64,000 bases of DNA. Source: Pseudomonas sp. GM79. GTDB taxonomy: Bacteria > Pseudomonadota > Gammaproteobacteria > Pseudomonadales > Pseudomonadaceae. Shown here in pieces: positions 2,685 through 7,255 of the stretch. A program made the position numbers and the translations under genes. How positions within the stretch are numbered: the stretch's first letter is position 1; the number at the start of each line of letters is the position of its first letter. The DNA lies in assembly GCF_000282495.1 (NCBI RefSeq), contig NZ_AKJE01000026.1, positions 1 to 64,000 on the forward strand, read 5' to 3'. The notes under the pieces were generated by a model, which worked only from the letters and a program-made list of their open reading frames with translations, was not told the origin of the DNA and searched no databases.

Positions 2685-3713
2685 ATGGAAAATAACCAGC
2701 CGATAATCATCAAACGCGTCAAAAAGTACGCGGGCGGGCATCACGGGGGCTCCTGGAAAATCGCCTTCGCGGACTTCGCGACGGCGATGATGGCGTTCTT
2801 CCTGGTGTTGTGGCTGTTGTCCACGGCAACGCCGGAACAGAAGATCGCCATTGCCGGTTACTTCAAGGATCCGGTCGGTTTCAGCGAAAGCGGCACGCCA
2901 TACATCATCGATCTGGGCGGCTCGCCGACCCTGGCACCGGAGAACACTCTCAACCCCGAGGTGAAATCCCAGCCTCAGCCGGACAAGGTGACTATCGATT
3001 CCGAACAGGTCGAAGGCATGGCCGAGCAGGTTGAGAAAGAGCGCCTGGAATTGCTGCTGCAAGAGTTGCAGAACAAGGTCGAAGAAAACCCGCAACTGCA
3101 GAAGTTCAAGGATCAGATCCTCTTCGAGATCACCCAGGACGGTTTGCGCATCCAGATTGTGGACGCCGAAAACCGCCCGATGTTCGACTCCGGCAGTGCG
3201 CGTCTGAAGCCGTATTTCGAAGACATTCTGCTGGCCATGGCCGACACCATCAAAGCGGTGCCGAACAAGATCAGCATCAGCGGCCACACCGATGCCAAGC
3301 CGTACTCGGGCACCGGCGACTTCGGCAACTGGGAACTCTCGGCCAACCGTGCGAACGCGGCTCGCCGTGCATTGATCGCCGGCAGCTATCCGGACGCTCA
3401 AGTAGCGCGAGTCGTGGGTTATGCCTCGTCGGCGCTGTTCGACCGGGAAAACCCGTTCAACCCGGTCAACCGCCGCATCGATATCATCGTGCTGACCAAG
3501 AAAGCCCAGCGTGCCATCGAAGGTTCGCAAGGTGCCGAACCTGCGCCAGTGCCGACGCAAGGGCAGGGCGGCCCGGGCGAAGTGCCTGCGCCGCCAGCCG
3601 ATCCGAACGCATTGCCGGCGGATAAGGAGCCGCTGCCGGCACATGAGCTTCGGGAGCGTTTGAATCTGTTTGATGATCCGGTGCCGAAACCGGCAGCGTC
3701 AGCCAAGCAGTGA
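2685..3713 (+). CDS. motB: Flagellar motor stator protein MotB
   Basis: The 342-residue stator partner of MotA has a short basic cytoplasmic N-terminus and a single membrane helix (about 26-47). That helix carries the conserved proton-accepting aspartate (D30 in FADFATAMMAFF). A linker leads to a periplasmic OmpA-like peptidoglycan-binding domain (about 150-275, with ISGHTDAKPY and NWELSANRANAARR). The C-terminal tail is rich in proline and alanine. It is co-transcribed with motA (gap of 3 bases) and closed by a strong terminator. This MotA/MotB pair is the proton-type stator; pseudomonads often also carry motCD elsewhere. Confidence 0.97.
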   Translation: MENNQPIIIKRVKKYAGGHHGGSWKIAFADFATAMMAFFLVLWLLSTATPEQKIAIAGYFKDPVGFSESGTPYIIDLGGSPTLAPENTLNPEVKSQPQPDKVTIDSEQVEGMAEQVEKERLELLLQELQNKVEENPQLQKFKDQILFEITQDGLRIQIVDAENRPMFDSGSARLKPYFEDILLAMADTIKAVPNKISISGHTDAKPYSGTGDFGNWELSANRANAARRALIAGSYPDAQVARVVGYASSALFDRENPFNPVNRRIDIIVLTKKAQRAIEGSQGAEPAPVPTQGQGGPGEVPAPPADPNALPADKEPLPAHELRERLNLFDDPVPKPAASAKQ

Positions 3714-3716
3714 TCA

Positions 3717-3746
3717 CAAAAAGCCGACAGAGATGTCGGCTTTTTG
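3717..3746 (+). terminator. Rho-independent terminator of motAB
   Basis: The hairpin AAAAAGCCGACA-GAGA-TGTCGGCTTTTT starts directly after the motB stop and has a T-run on the descending side. Confidence 0.9.
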
Positions 3747-3852
3747 TCTCTGCTGTCTCGTCCTGAATAAGGTTTACACCTTCCGACTTCTTATCAGGAA
3801 GTCGTTATGGGCCATCAATCCCGGCCACAGCTGCAATGGCGAAACCGCTGCA

Positions 3853-4023
3853 ATGGATGCCGCTAATCATTTTCGTGGCGTCACGAAAATGATCGAGGTC
3901 GGCAAAGGCGACCAGCGATTGTCGATCTGGAACGCTGAGATTGCGTCAAACCCTCAAGGTTACAAAAGGGTGGATGGCCACCGCTTGATCAAGACCATTC
4001 AAGAAGCCTTTGGCCTCAATTAA
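3853..4023 (+). CDS. Possible small protein of unknown function
   Basis: A 56-codon frame starts MDAANHFRGVTKMIEVGKGD and ends LIKTIQEAFGLN. I do not recognise it. The frame is open further upstream but runs back through the motB terminator. No clear ribosome-binding site precedes the ATG, and codons 5-14 lie inside a perfect inverted repeat (3866-3893). It is the only candidate gene in the stretch between motB and the TIR-caspase operon, and its C-terminal half looks protein-like. It may be the remnant of a larger gene. The rest of 3747-4155 shows one small hairpin (3784-3804) and nothing else I can name. Confidence 0.3.
   Translation: MDAANHFRGVTKMIEVGKGDQRLSIWNAEIASNPQGYKRVDGHRLIKTIQEAFGLN
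3866..3893. repeat. Perfect inverted repeat, 12-bp arms
   Basis: The arms ATCATTTTCGTG and CACGAAAATGAT flank a 4-base loop (GCGT). It is AT-rich with no T-run, so it resembles an operator or recombination site more than a terminator. It lies inside the doubtful small frame at 3853-4023. Confidence 0.8.
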
Positions 4024-4155: not shown

Positions 4156-4641
4156 TCAGAAACCGCGTCGGATGCGGCTCTTGAGTTGGTCGTGGAACAA
4201 CTCGGCGTTGCCTCTGTAGGTGCGGTAAAGGGATTCATTGATCGAACCCAGCGTCATTGAGCGCTTGGTCGCCACTTCTTCACGATAGGCATCAATGAAA
4301 AACTCCAGATCCTTGTCGGTGCTGAGCTTTGGCCATTTATCGAGATACAGCGGCAGTTCCGCCGGTCCGGTCTTGAATGAGCATATCCGCCGGTTGCTGA
4401 TGGTCGCTTCACCGATTTCGAACGGCACCCACCACGACAGCGCGGTCTTGTCCGAGACTATCGCCAGCAGATGCGTGCACTCGGTGATGTTGCGGGTGAT
4501 GACCCCGGTGATGTCGTCAGTGGTCTGTGATTCCGGATCCAGCACGTCGAAGTAGGTCTTGATGTTGGCCCGAATCAGACGGGTGCTGATGGCGATGGCG
4601 TGGGACCGATCGGTATGGCGGTAACTGATAAACACAGGCAT
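4156..4641 (-). CDS. TIR-domain protein, third gene of TIR-caspase operon
   Basis: The 161-residue protein is a single TIR domain plus a short helical tail. It starts MPVFISYRHTDRSHA, with the TIR box-1 motif FISYRHTD at residues 4-11. The SWWVPFEIGEA segment (residues 69-79) contains glutamates E75 and E78, one of which should be the catalytic glutamate of NAD-cleaving TIR enzymes. No membrane segment or signal peptide is seen. Its ATG overlaps the stop of the caspase gene by one base (TGATG), implying translational coupling. It could be a second NAD-derived signal producer, an NADase effector, or a regulator of the first TIR protein; the sequence does not decide. An in-frame extension upstream overlaps the caspase gene and is not likely used. 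Confidence 0.85.
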   Translation of the reverse strand: MPVFISYRHTDRSHAIAISTRLIRANIKTYFDVLDPESQTTDDITGVITRNITECTHLLAIVSDKTALSWWVPFEIGEATISNRRICSFKTGPAELPLYLDKWPKLSTDKDLEFFIDAYREEVATKRSMTLGSINESLYRTYRGNAELFHDQLKSRIRRGF

Positions 4642-5600
4642 CAGAAATGTCCCTTGATCGCGAGTTCGCGGTAATAGGCGCCGAGGGCGGTAAGACGGCA
4701 TCCGGTGGAGTGGATGGCGGCGTAGTACATGTGCTCGGCGTCCACCGGTTCGATCAGGCTGTGGCGATTGCACTTTTGCAGTTGGGCGAAGACTTCGCCG
4801 TGTTCCGGGTCGAACGTGGCTTCGGTAGGTTCGTAGCTCGGATCGAGGGCAAACATTGACTCCGCCTCTTCGAACCAATCAGGCAGTTTGCGCAGGATCT
4901 CTTTGGGTATTAGCGGCGAGACTTCTCGCAATGAAATGAACTGCGACACATTGGTCTTGAACACGGGGCGCTGTTCCCACGCGTCGAGAGCGTTGTCGAC
5001 GAATGAATAGAGGCTGCCGGGGGTAATCTTTCCCAATATGTTTGCGGCGCCGCCGTGCAGTGCTTGCAGCAACAGCCCCGTGAAGACGCCGTGGTTGGCG
5101 CCTTCCATGGCCGGCTCTGCCTTTTTGCACGCGGTGAGGATGGTCATGCCTTCGCACACCATGCTGCTTTCGCTGCGTAGCGCCCGCACTTCGCCCGCCG
5201 AGCCCGCCTGGCAGCAGTCGAGAATAATCACTTTGTTTTTGATTTTTACCGCTTTGGTCGCCCAGTTCAGGATGTCGCTGATGCGAATTCCATCCTTGGC
5301 GGACTTGTAGTCCTGGGGGATCAGCATGCCTTCGTCCGTATCGACGTCGAAGTTGCCGTGACCGGCGAAGTACAACAGTGCAACGCTGCAATCGCCTGAA
5401 AACAACTCCTGGATATGCCCTTCGAGCTTTTCGCGGCTCAGATAATCTTCGGCGGAGGTCAGGACCAGGTTCTTGAAATTCGGATCGCCATTGGCGTCGG
5501 TTTTCAGCACCGAAGCCATGGCCATTGCGTCGTTGTTGCAACCACTCAATTGCGAAACATGGCTGTAGTTATTAATGCCGATGAACAATCCCTTGCGCAT
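4641..5600 (-). CDS. Caspase-like protease (peptidase C14 family)
   Basis: The 319-residue protein begins MRKGLFIGINNY, the first strand of the caspase fold. The catalytic dyad is visible: H81 in LLYFAGHGN and C130 in ILDCCQAG. The caspase domain covers about 1-225. A separate C-terminal part (about 235-319, with LIEPVDAEHMYYAA and GCRLTALGAYY) may sense a ligand or partner. By established knowledge, TIR-caspase (type IV Thoeris) systems use a TIR enzyme to make N7-cADPR, which activates a caspase-like protease that degrades cell proteins and stops phage growth. This gene sits between two TIR genes in one tight operon, so the same role is inferred. No signal peptide or membrane segment is seen, so it should be cytoplasmic. 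Confidence 0.9.
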   Translation of the reverse strand: MRKGLFIGINNYSHVSQLSGCNNDAMAMASVLKTDANGDPNFKNLVLTSAEDYLSREKLEGHIQELFSGDCSVALLYFAGHGNFDVDTDEGMLIPQDYKSAKDGIRISDILNWATKAVKIKNKVIILDCCQAGSAGEVRALRSESSMVCEGMTILTACKKAEPAMEGANHGVFTGLLLQALHGGAANILGKITPGSLYSFVDNALDAWEQRPVFKTNVSQFISLREVSPLIPKEILRKLPDWFEEAESMFALDPSYEPTEATFDPEHGEVFAQLQKCNRHSLIEPVDAEHMYYAAIHSTGCRLTALGAYYRELAIKGHF

Positions 5601-5603
5601 GGT

Positions 5604-6011
5604 TCAGCCCGCCGCGTGAGTGCGAATGGCATCGATGATGCTGTTGGTGTTCCACGCACACTCCGCGTGCGCCGCCCGGCGTACCACCGTGGAAATCCGT
5701 TCGGCGCCAAACGGCTTTATCGCAATGATGACCTTGCCCATTCGCCTGGCGATCTCGATTTCCTTGTTGATCCACTTGCTGTAGGTCGAATACATCCCCG
5801 CCATGATCAGCACTGCCGAGCAGAGCCGAATCTTGTTTTCGATGGCTTCTTCAAGTTGTTTGTCGGTTTGCGCGCCGATGATCGGGTTGTCCGGTGGCAC
5901 CGAAAAATTCTTGAACGTGAAGCCGGGTTTGGCGTTGAGCAACCGCACGAGGTTGTCATGGGCGTGGGGGTAGTTCCACGAATGGCTGATGAACAGATGA
6001 TAGGTTTGCAT
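5604..6011 (-). CDS. ThsB-like TIR-fold protein, first gene of TIR-caspase operon
   Basis: The 135-residue protein is of the ThsB/DUF1863 TIR type. FISHSW is at residues 7-12, a SVPPDNPI stretch at 37-44, and SKWINKEIEIARRMGK at 78-93, where E84 or E86 should be the catalytic glutamate near W80. Proteins of this kind in Thoeris systems detect phage infection and make a cyclic ADP-ribose-type signal from NAD. It is the promoter-proximal gene; its stop lies 3 bases before the caspase start. That arrangement suggests it is the signal producer for the caspase. Which cADPR isomer it makes cannot be read from the sequence. Confidence 0.85.
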   Translation of the reverse strand: MQTYHLFISHSWNYPHAHDNLVRLLNAKPGFTFKNFSVPPDNPIIGAQTDKQLEEAIENKIRLCSAVLIMAGMYSTYSKWINKEIEIARRMGKVIIAIKPFGAERISTVVRRAAHAECAWNTNSIIDAIRTHAAG

Positions 6012-6223
6012 GGGTATCCCTCGGTATCGCCAAAATGCGAAGAGGGCTCGAATGTATGCACTTGCGTGGTCGCAACAAGACCTGCGCTGATAAAGAGAAT
6101 TTGCCTACAAACAGGCGCGCAGAAGCCTTACAGAAGTTTCTGACGTTTAAAGGGTGAGGATATTTGTAGGATGCTACAAGCGGCGCGCCGCCCCGTCAGT
6201 GTCGAGGCAGCGGGCGCGTCTGT

Positions 6224-7255
6224 TTAGTAGCTGGTTTCGGGCAAACTGGCGATGATCGAGCGGTAGCTGTTCATCCGTTGCTGCTGCACGCGACCCTCTT
6301 CCAGGGCCTTGAGCAGGGCGCAACCCGGTTCGCGGTCGTGCTTGCAATCGCGGAAGCGGCAGGTGCCGATCAGGTCGTTGAACTCGATGAAACCTGCTTC
6401 GACGTCGGCACGGCTGACGTGACCCAGGCCGAATTCCCGAATACCCGGGGAGTCGATCAACTCACCGCCACCGGGGAAGTGGAACAACCGCGCGGTGGTG
6501 GTGGTGTGGGTGCCTTGGCCCGACAGCTCGGACAGTGGGCCGACGCGGGTGTCGACTTCCGGCAGCAGGCTGTTGACCAGCGACGACTTGCCGACGCCGG
6601 ATTGGCCGACGAATACGCTGATGTGCCCGTCCAGCTGCTTTTGCAACTGTTCCATGCCATTGCCGTGGTGGGCCGACACTTCCAGCACCGGGTAACCCAG
6701 CGTGCGGTAAACCGCCAGCAAGGCATTCAGCGCCGGGGCGTTCTGCTCGTCGATCAGGTCGAATTTGTTCAACAGCAGTAACGGCCGAATACCGGCGTGT
6801 TCCGCAGCGACCAGATAACGGTCGATCAGGTTGGCGTGAGGCTCGGGCAGCGGCGCGAAGACGATCACGATCAAGTCGACGTTGGCCGCCACCGGCTTGA
6901 GCTGGCCACGGCTGTCGGGACGGCAGAGCTCGGTTTTGCGCGGCAGTTGCGCCACGATCACGCCGATGCCCTGGTTGCCGGCACGCCATACCACCTGATC
7001 GCCAGTCACCAGCGCTGGCAGGTTGGCGCGCAAATGGCAGCGGAACACCTGGCCGGCCAATTCGCCATCGAGGGCCTCGACTTCGACCTGCACACCGAAG
7101 TGCGCGATCACCAGGCCCGTCTGTTCCGGACCCAGGTCGCCGCCTTCGAGAGCCTCGACAGCCGAGGACTCGCGTTTGGCGGCGCGGGCAGCGCGCTCGC
7201 CCTGAATCTTTTCGATGCGCCAGTTTTGACGACGATTGAGTTGGCGTTTGGCCAT
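6224..7255 (-). CDS. rsgA: Small-subunit ribosome biogenesis GTPase RsgA
   Basis: This 343-residue circularly permuted GTPase checks late 30S subunit maturation and helps RbfA leave. It has a basic N-terminal tail ([18 protein letters not shown]) and an OB-fold domain (about 45-110). The GTPase domain has its motifs in permuted order: NKFD (G4), then [10 protein letters not shown] (G1), then DSPG (G3). The C-terminal zinc knuckle is [14 protein letters not shown]. It is divergent from orn. In P. aeruginosa, from memory, rsgA lies directly next to motB, so the TIR-caspase operon interrupts a conserved junction here. The 212 bases between rsgA and the first TIR gene hold no other gene. Confidence 0.97.

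Follow-up and report, generated by a model that had tools for sequence, protein, structure and literature searches.

A TIR–caspase operon with two TIR genes at the motB–rsgA junction of Pseudomonas: a putative form of type IV Thoeris

TIR and caspase proteins play a central part in the immunity of animals, plants and bacteria, and an operon in which two TIR genes accompany a single caspase gene raises the question of how the labour of sensing and signal making is divided. Here we analyze such an operon in Pseudomonas sp. GM79, found within positions 1–64,000 of contig NZ_AKJE01000026.1 (assembly GCF_000282495.1); this whole stretch of 64,000 nucleotides is referred to as the window. It encodes two TIR proteins (TIR1 and TIR2) and a caspase-like protease. 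Natural deletions at the site partly answer the question, because the protease and the predicted catalytic glutamate of TIR2 stand or fall together in the genomes examined, and TIR1 can be lost. We consider it somewhat better than even (a probability of about 0.55) that the operon is a two-TIR form of type IV Thoeris, in which TIR2 makes the signal and TIR1 helps in sensing.

The operon and its products

The operon occupies positions 4156–6011 of the minus strand and is complete, with its genes in the order TIR1, caspase-like protease, TIR2 (Table 1). They are tightly packed, as an earlier note made from the sequence alone had described. Three bases (5601–5603) separate TIR1 from the caspase gene, and the start codon of TIR2 shares one base with the caspase stop codon, a 1-base overlap at 4641 (spacing −1). 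As this gene order recurs across tens of species, the operon is far beyond chance.

Profile searches agree with the domain assignments of the note. The first gene product matches ThsB_TIR (PF08937, 6.5e-14), as expected of a ThsB/DUF1863-type TIR, the second matches Peptidase_C14 (PF00656, 1.6e-18) with both His81 and Cys130 present, and the third belongs to another subfamily, TIR_2 (PF13676, 5.1e-10), also reaching ThsB_TIR exactly at its cut-off (21.2 bits). The ThsB models of PADLOC match both TIRs, and the protease is there given the label ‘caspase’. Each TIR has the glutamate of a WxxxE motif, Glu84 in TIR1 and Glu75 in TIR2. Apart from MTH538 (2.3e-6) for TIR1, sequence searching of the PDB returned nothing beyond weak metacaspase and TIR matches; among the weak ones, Glu75 of TIR2 is aligned with a glutamate in BcThsB (8btn, E 0.22) and in a B. 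cereus TIR (8fz9, E 0.007). TIR2 is formed by a TIR domain followed by a C-terminal helical tail. The C14 fold of the protease takes up residues 1–228, and the remaining ~90 amino acids form a C-terminal region that is well predicted structurally; residues 229–319 find no match in the VIA list, which barely tests such a region.

Three gene features of type IV Thoeris are found here. A TIR gene and a caspase-like protease gene share one operon, the caspase fold has its histidine and cysteine, and the TIR has the glutamate of an NADase. Thus the type-IV-Thoeris-like gene set suggested by the note is indeed present. The only non-TIR gene of the operon is a Peptidase_C14, not the ThsA of type I Thoeris. 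In NCBIfam the sole match of the protease is the EACC1-type model NF047832 at 92.2 bits, below the 140-bit cut-off, and none of the families matched by the operon proteins in that search is named for type IV Thoeris. A search of the region upstream of TIR1 for a sigma-70-like promoter found none; since the region is largely kept where TIR1 has been lost, it probably holds the start signals of the operon.

Table 1. Features of the operon and its surroundings in the window.
Feature	Position	Strand	Remarks
motB	2685-3713	+	One flank of the site; common to empty sites
hairpin-like element	3862-3898		Also in 4 of 11 empty motB–rsgA gaps compared
TIR2	4156-4641	-	161 aa (amino acids); TIR_2-type; predicted catalytic Glu75, codon 4417-4419
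caspase-like protease	4641-5600	-	319 aa; His81 codon 5358-5360; Cys130 codon 5211-5213
TIR1	5604-6011	-	135 aa; ThsB/DUF1863-type TIR; first gene of the operon; predicted catalytic Glu84, codon 5760-5762
operon upstream region	6012-6223	-	Largely kept in loci without TIR1
rsgA	6224-7255	-	Other flank of the site; homology with 11 empty sites resumes at 6220-6225

Retention and loss of the three genes at the site

How widely are the three genes kept together? We analyzed 398 Pseudomonas genomes, one per species. The caspase finds some match in 64 of these at E ≤ 1e-3, and reading of the neighbourhoods places it at the motB–rsgA junction in 47. The note had held that its proposal would fall if the caspase were found at this site in all pseudomonads without TIR partners, or if the TIR glutamates were not conserved; neither is the case. 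rsgA lies inside the fetched stretch in 46 of the 47 loci, and in the other (G038) it is on the same contig ~1.6 kb from TIR1. TIR2 accompanies the caspase in 46 of the 47 (G232 has it on a second contig, the start of which falls within the caspase gene), and Glu75 is retained in every one of these 46. A full TIR1 is present in 41 of the 47 loci, a remnant in one and none in five, these five including a locus without either TIR. The caspase reading frame is broken in one locus (L047), and in a further genome (L052) the site holds no more of the caspase than a fragment.

A second set of 80 loci, many from the same species as the genus sample, gives a similar picture. Sixty-seven lie at the site, and in 61 of them Glu84, His81, Cys130 and Glu75 are all present (the frame-broken L283 included). 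The other six comprise three without a TIR1 match and two with a partial TIR1 (the other three residues being intact), together with one lone caspase. This last, from Pseudomonas akapageensis (L046:3001-3963, also L292), has no TIR genes and its Cys130 is replaced by Phe. Two others have lost a catalytic residue among the best 120 of 5037 caspase homologues, by His81 to Asn (P0114) and Cys130 to Tyr (P0110). Glu75 is found in 119 of the best 120 of 574 TIR2 homologues. Both TIRs thus keep their glutamates alongside the caspase, with the exception of one TIR2 of unseen context that is discussed below. In P. baetica a second caspase copy away from the site (L054, also L287) is interrupted by a stop codon or a frameshift, and the adjoining TIR2 keeps Glu75.

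The same genomes contain TIR2 without the caspase. TIR2 matches occur in 84 of the 398, of which 46 have the site caspase, 35 have a TIR2 of 33–51% identity without it, and three are others (off-site with a caspase in G350; weak partial matches in G280, which was read and is off-site, and G061). The 35 caspase-less loci (L121–L140, L149–L157 and L319–L324) are flanked by both rsgA and motB in 34 cases and by rsgA only in L127. TIR1 is missing too in 34 of them, and kept in L132. A distant caspase-fold match (27–28% identity) exists elsewhere in two of these genomes, G007 and G259. In all 35 Glu75 has been lost, replaced by Leu (18), Gln (8), Ser (4), Gly (3) or Ala (2). With Glu75 in 46 of 46 TIR2s beside the caspase and 0 of 35 without it, and with the cysteine replaced in the lone caspase, TIR2 catalysis and the protease go together. 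On a TIR2 tree of 78 rows, built without the Glu75 column, caspase presence and the state of the glutamate each require three changes by parsimony, and these coincide (49/49 versus 0/29). The association of Glu75 with the site caspase is therefore strict in the genomes examined, across few events.

Are the caspase-less TIR2s decaying? We rejected the view that they are mere pseudogenes, which is countered by full-length open reading frames (ORFs; 152–166 aa, n = 29) and by the median ratio of nonsynonymous to synonymous substitution rates (dN/dS). For 29 Glu-less TIR2s the latter is 0.27 overall (177 pairs) and 0.19–0.22 within two clades, compared with 0.15 for live TIR2, 0.14 for the caspase, 0.10 for TIR1 and 0.02–0.11 for rsgA and motB; pairs were limited to dS of 0.05–1.2, and single pairs reach 0.85. 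Thus the Glu-less proteins are constrained, if less so than their neighbours. Alignment of 29 of the 35 with 45 live TIR2s shows that the two groups share 27 conserved positions, a number of which fall in the C-terminal tail (Ala146, Phe149, His150, Leu153 and Gly160). These stand-alone, Glu-less proteins resemble a conserved family of pseudoenzymes. Any activity that they have would consist in binding, not catalysis; a guard, a decoy or a sponge for NAD-derived signals are candidate roles. They would then be a clear case of an immune enzyme kept as a bacterial pseudoenzyme after loss of its effector. We tentatively suggest, at rather less than even odds, that TIR2 is the obligate enzyme and TIR1 the sensor of live systems, and that lineages without the protease turned TIR2 into a catalytically dead, stand-alone TIR with a new binding function.

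TIR1 is deleted or reduced in 5 of the 46 site loci that have caspase and TIR2, being absent from L018, L023, L024 and L045 and cut down in L022. In the first three the upstream homology reaches ~30 bases into TIR1 and is followed by the caspase, in L045 some 25 bases are left at either end of the gene, and in L022 the start and the 3′ part remain. For the four loci without TIR1, in comparisons that take in the TIR1-bearing relatives L006 and L044, dN/dS is 0.04–0.12 for the caspase and 0.05–0.09 for TIR2, showing that both persist under purifying selection after the loss of TIR1 in the loci measured. Four genomes have TIR1 alone at the site (L141–L144), all with Glu84 intact, so that TIR1 catalysis is not tied to the caspase there. 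At the Pseudomonas site, then, TIR2 is the constant partner of the caspase, and TIR1 is the gene that is lost.

Proposed division of labour between the TIR proteins

Type IV Thoeris (Rousset et al. 2025, doi 10.1126/science.adu2262) is described in PMC12847820 and PMC13373217 as a TIR protein and a caspase-like protease, with an NAD+-derived signal passing to the protease. Within that framework TIR2 would be triggered on infection, probably with the help of TIR1 acting as sensor or recruiter. TIR2 is predicted to turn NAD+ into a cyclic-ADP-ribose-type signal, likely N7-cADPR, and this would activate the protease. The active protease would degrade proteins of the cell and so stop the phage, making this a self-destruct defence. 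The characterized type IV system has a single TIR, though this may not be a defining feature. The present operon has the same putative signal logic, with TIR and caspase-like protease genes in one operon and catalytic residues intact, the comparison being by description; it differs in having a TIR gene on either side of the protease gene, the two being from different subfamilies, and in that the downstream one is at the Pseudomonas site the constant, catalysis-coupled partner.

A precedent for two TIRs is provided by type I Thoeris, where two TIR proteins likewise serve one effector per operon. That effector is ThsA, acting on NAD+, in contrast to the protease here. According to PMC12578639, ThsB1 of Sau-Thoeris (thsA/thsB1/thsB2) binds the major head protein of the phage, recruiting ThsB2, and a Glu/Phe pair is needed in ThsB2 and dispensable in ThsB1; in the Thoeris of Streptococcus equinus (Seq-Thoeris) it is the catalytic site of ThsB1 that is needed. 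Because of this analogy, and because TIR2 catalysis tracks the protease, signal making by TIR2 and sensing or recruitment by TIR1 are the likely assignments.

Several observations weigh against this reading. TIR1 keeps its own Glu84 in all of the best 120 of 1094 homologues, and is thus not an obvious catalytically dead sensor. In P. lini a TIR2 of 93% identity (P0123) has Glu75 replaced by Lys, and is a possible counterexample to the coupling. The independent events are few, with just one caspase/Glu pair that is independent on well-supported branches. Nor is Glu75 the sole change in the Glu-less TIR2s: almost all of the 29 compared have likewise lost eight further positions, each conserved in 97% or more of the 45 live TIR2s. 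Finally, of 34 caspase loci outside the site, a non-random sample, 31 have a small TIR-like ORF immediately upstream of the caspase (TIR1 profile, 11–202 bits, E ≤ 1). The low profile scores among these are weak, and the two that were checked with Pfam were both confirmed. As the small upstream TIR is near-constant there and TIR2 optional, TIR1-type proteins may serve the caspase alone outside the site.

The wider family is large. Protein searches at E ≤ 1e-3 gave 5037 caspase, 574 TIR2 and 1094 TIR1 proteins. At E ≤ 1e-30 the caspase finds matches in 43 plasmid records, 22 of them classed as conjugative; the 43 come from groups that include Proteobacteria, Actinobacteria and Bacillota. A draw of 398 genomes across the phylum, the window's own among them, contains seven with the caspase at E ≤ 1e-20. 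A TIR2-type gene joins caspase and small TIR in at least 8 of the 34 off-site loci (L049, L051, L220, L289, L295, L305, L307 and L311). The second TIR gene, called extra in the note and not known there to be standard, is therefore not peculiar to GM79; two-TIR caspase sets occur elsewhere and on plasmids, as well as in nearly all the site loci. Where no small TIR was scored directly upstream, L289 has one by eye, L297 has one downstream, and in L310 two TIR genes are annotated, in divergent orientation. Which TIR is the ‘extra’ one depends on lineage. TIR2 is one of several optional genes outside the site, and the idea that it is simply the extra gene is rejected for the lineage at the Pseudomonas site, where TIR1 is lost instead; that TIR1 is the extra gene everywhere is rejected by the near-constancy of the small upstream TIR outside.

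These data bear on two other ways of dividing the labour. The main rival, which we consider unlikely, is that TIR1 and TIR2 sense different phage triggers in parallel and make the same signal for one caspase, either being dispensable. The glutamates kept in both TIRs agree with this, as do the site loci having caspase and TIR2 alone, and seven loci outside Pseudomonas where the fetched stretch has a caspase with a TIR1-type and no TIR2-type gene (L228, L291, L293, L294, L298, L312 and L316). Yet the converse deletion is not seen at the site, where none of the 47 loci has TIR1 and caspase but lacks TIR2, and the TIR1-only loci keep their glutamate with no caspase to serve. It is more doubtful still that the signal is made by TIR1, as happens in TIR–caspase operons of the ordinary two-gene kind, with TIR2 an accessory or regulator. 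The upstream ThsB-like TIR of the off-site loci, where the further gene varies, is what would be expected; but caspase and TIR2 remain constrained in the four loci measured where TIR1 is deleted, a fifth keeps both beside a remnant, and TIR2 has lost its glutamate in every caspase-less site locus.

The gene following the caspase outside the site is diverse. It is an S8 peptidase in L299 (PF00082, 8.4e-32) and a metallophosphoesterase in L310 (PF00149, 5.2e-8), and in L050, L228, L294, L309 and L315 it has no Pfam match. These sets share with ours an adjoining TIR and the same caspase family (~45% identity), and differ in having a non-TIR gene after the caspase where TIR2 stands here. S8 (subtilisin-like) peptidases also follow the caspase in L308, by annotation, and in L300 and L049, by eye, which suggests that TIR–caspase–subtilase operons exist. 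On a plasmid (L310:857-5972) caspase, metallophosphoesterase and the two divergent TIR genes lie beside a SIR2-family gene. The EACC1-associated caspase system (NF047832; PMC7159879) has a related caspase domain, at the sub-threshold score given above, and has EACC1 as partner where the present operon has TIRs.

TIR–caspase systems as a kind are already known; what appears to be new is the presence of two TIRs, the linked loss of the protease and of the glutamate of TIR2, and the constrained Glu-less TIR2s. The literature matches listed, which mostly omit subscription papers and the defining type IV paper and are available in part, describe no two-TIR caspase system, no Glu-less TIR2s and no joint loss of protease and TIR2 glutamate. 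If the preferred division between TIR2 as signal maker and TIR1 as sensor is true, one chromosomal site of Pseudomonas would present a TIR–caspase immune system dissected by natural deletion.

The motB–rsgA site and its cargo

The operon lies between the hairpin-like element and rsgA. Compared with 11 empty sites, homology of the window ends at or just past the end of motB (3708–3781) and restarts beside rsgA. We sampled 60 sites of relatives that are caspase-less at the site, from ~108 such genomes among the best-scoring matches listed; two of these relatives (G268 and G350) have a distant caspase elsewhere in the genome. None of the 60 has a match to TIR1, caspase or TIR2 at E < 0.05. In 39 of the 55 that are readable, motB and rsgA are less than 300 bp apart, bearing out the suggestion of the note that the operon interrupts this junction. 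The other 16 readable gaps (in the series L160–L219) hold unrelated sequence with ORFs, of 0.75–3.3 kb, so the junction accepts varied cargo.

An insertion is thus real. The site resembles a long-standing residence, where genes are lost and alleles exchanged, more than the plain defence-gene insertion spot proposed in the note. We rejected a recent foreign island, because the G+C content is ordinary (0.561 against a mean of 0.594, standard deviation 0.024, for same-length stretches of the window, 8.8% of which are equal or lower). The genes differ from one another in their DNA identity to the window, which is 92.0% for rsgA, 82.5% for TIR1, 76.4% for the caspase and 90.5% for TIR2 in L026, and 95.2% for the caspase and 82.0% for TIR2 in L003; alleles therefore appear to have been exchanged at the site. 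It is very improbable that the operon is no phage defence at all but a resident stress or cell-death switch of some pseudomonads, as its fixed place beside rsgA and ordinary G+C might suggest, given its patchy distribution (the site is cleanly empty in close relatives), its mosaic identity, the related gene sets on plasmids of several phyla and the PADLOC ThsB matches, all typical of defence genes.

The hairpin-like element is probably an old intergenic terminator; its matches in empty sites are in L160, L162, L163 and L164, and in the last two it is additionally present inverted. A small ORF in the gap between motB and the operon (3670–4023, plus strand) has no alignment to the 11 empty sites beyond its motB-side end and the hairpin, and may be a remnant. 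In L133 aminotransferase-like (4663–5838) and LysR-like (5931–6875) ORFs, identified by eye, lie between the Glu-less TIR2 and rsgA as a further insertion.
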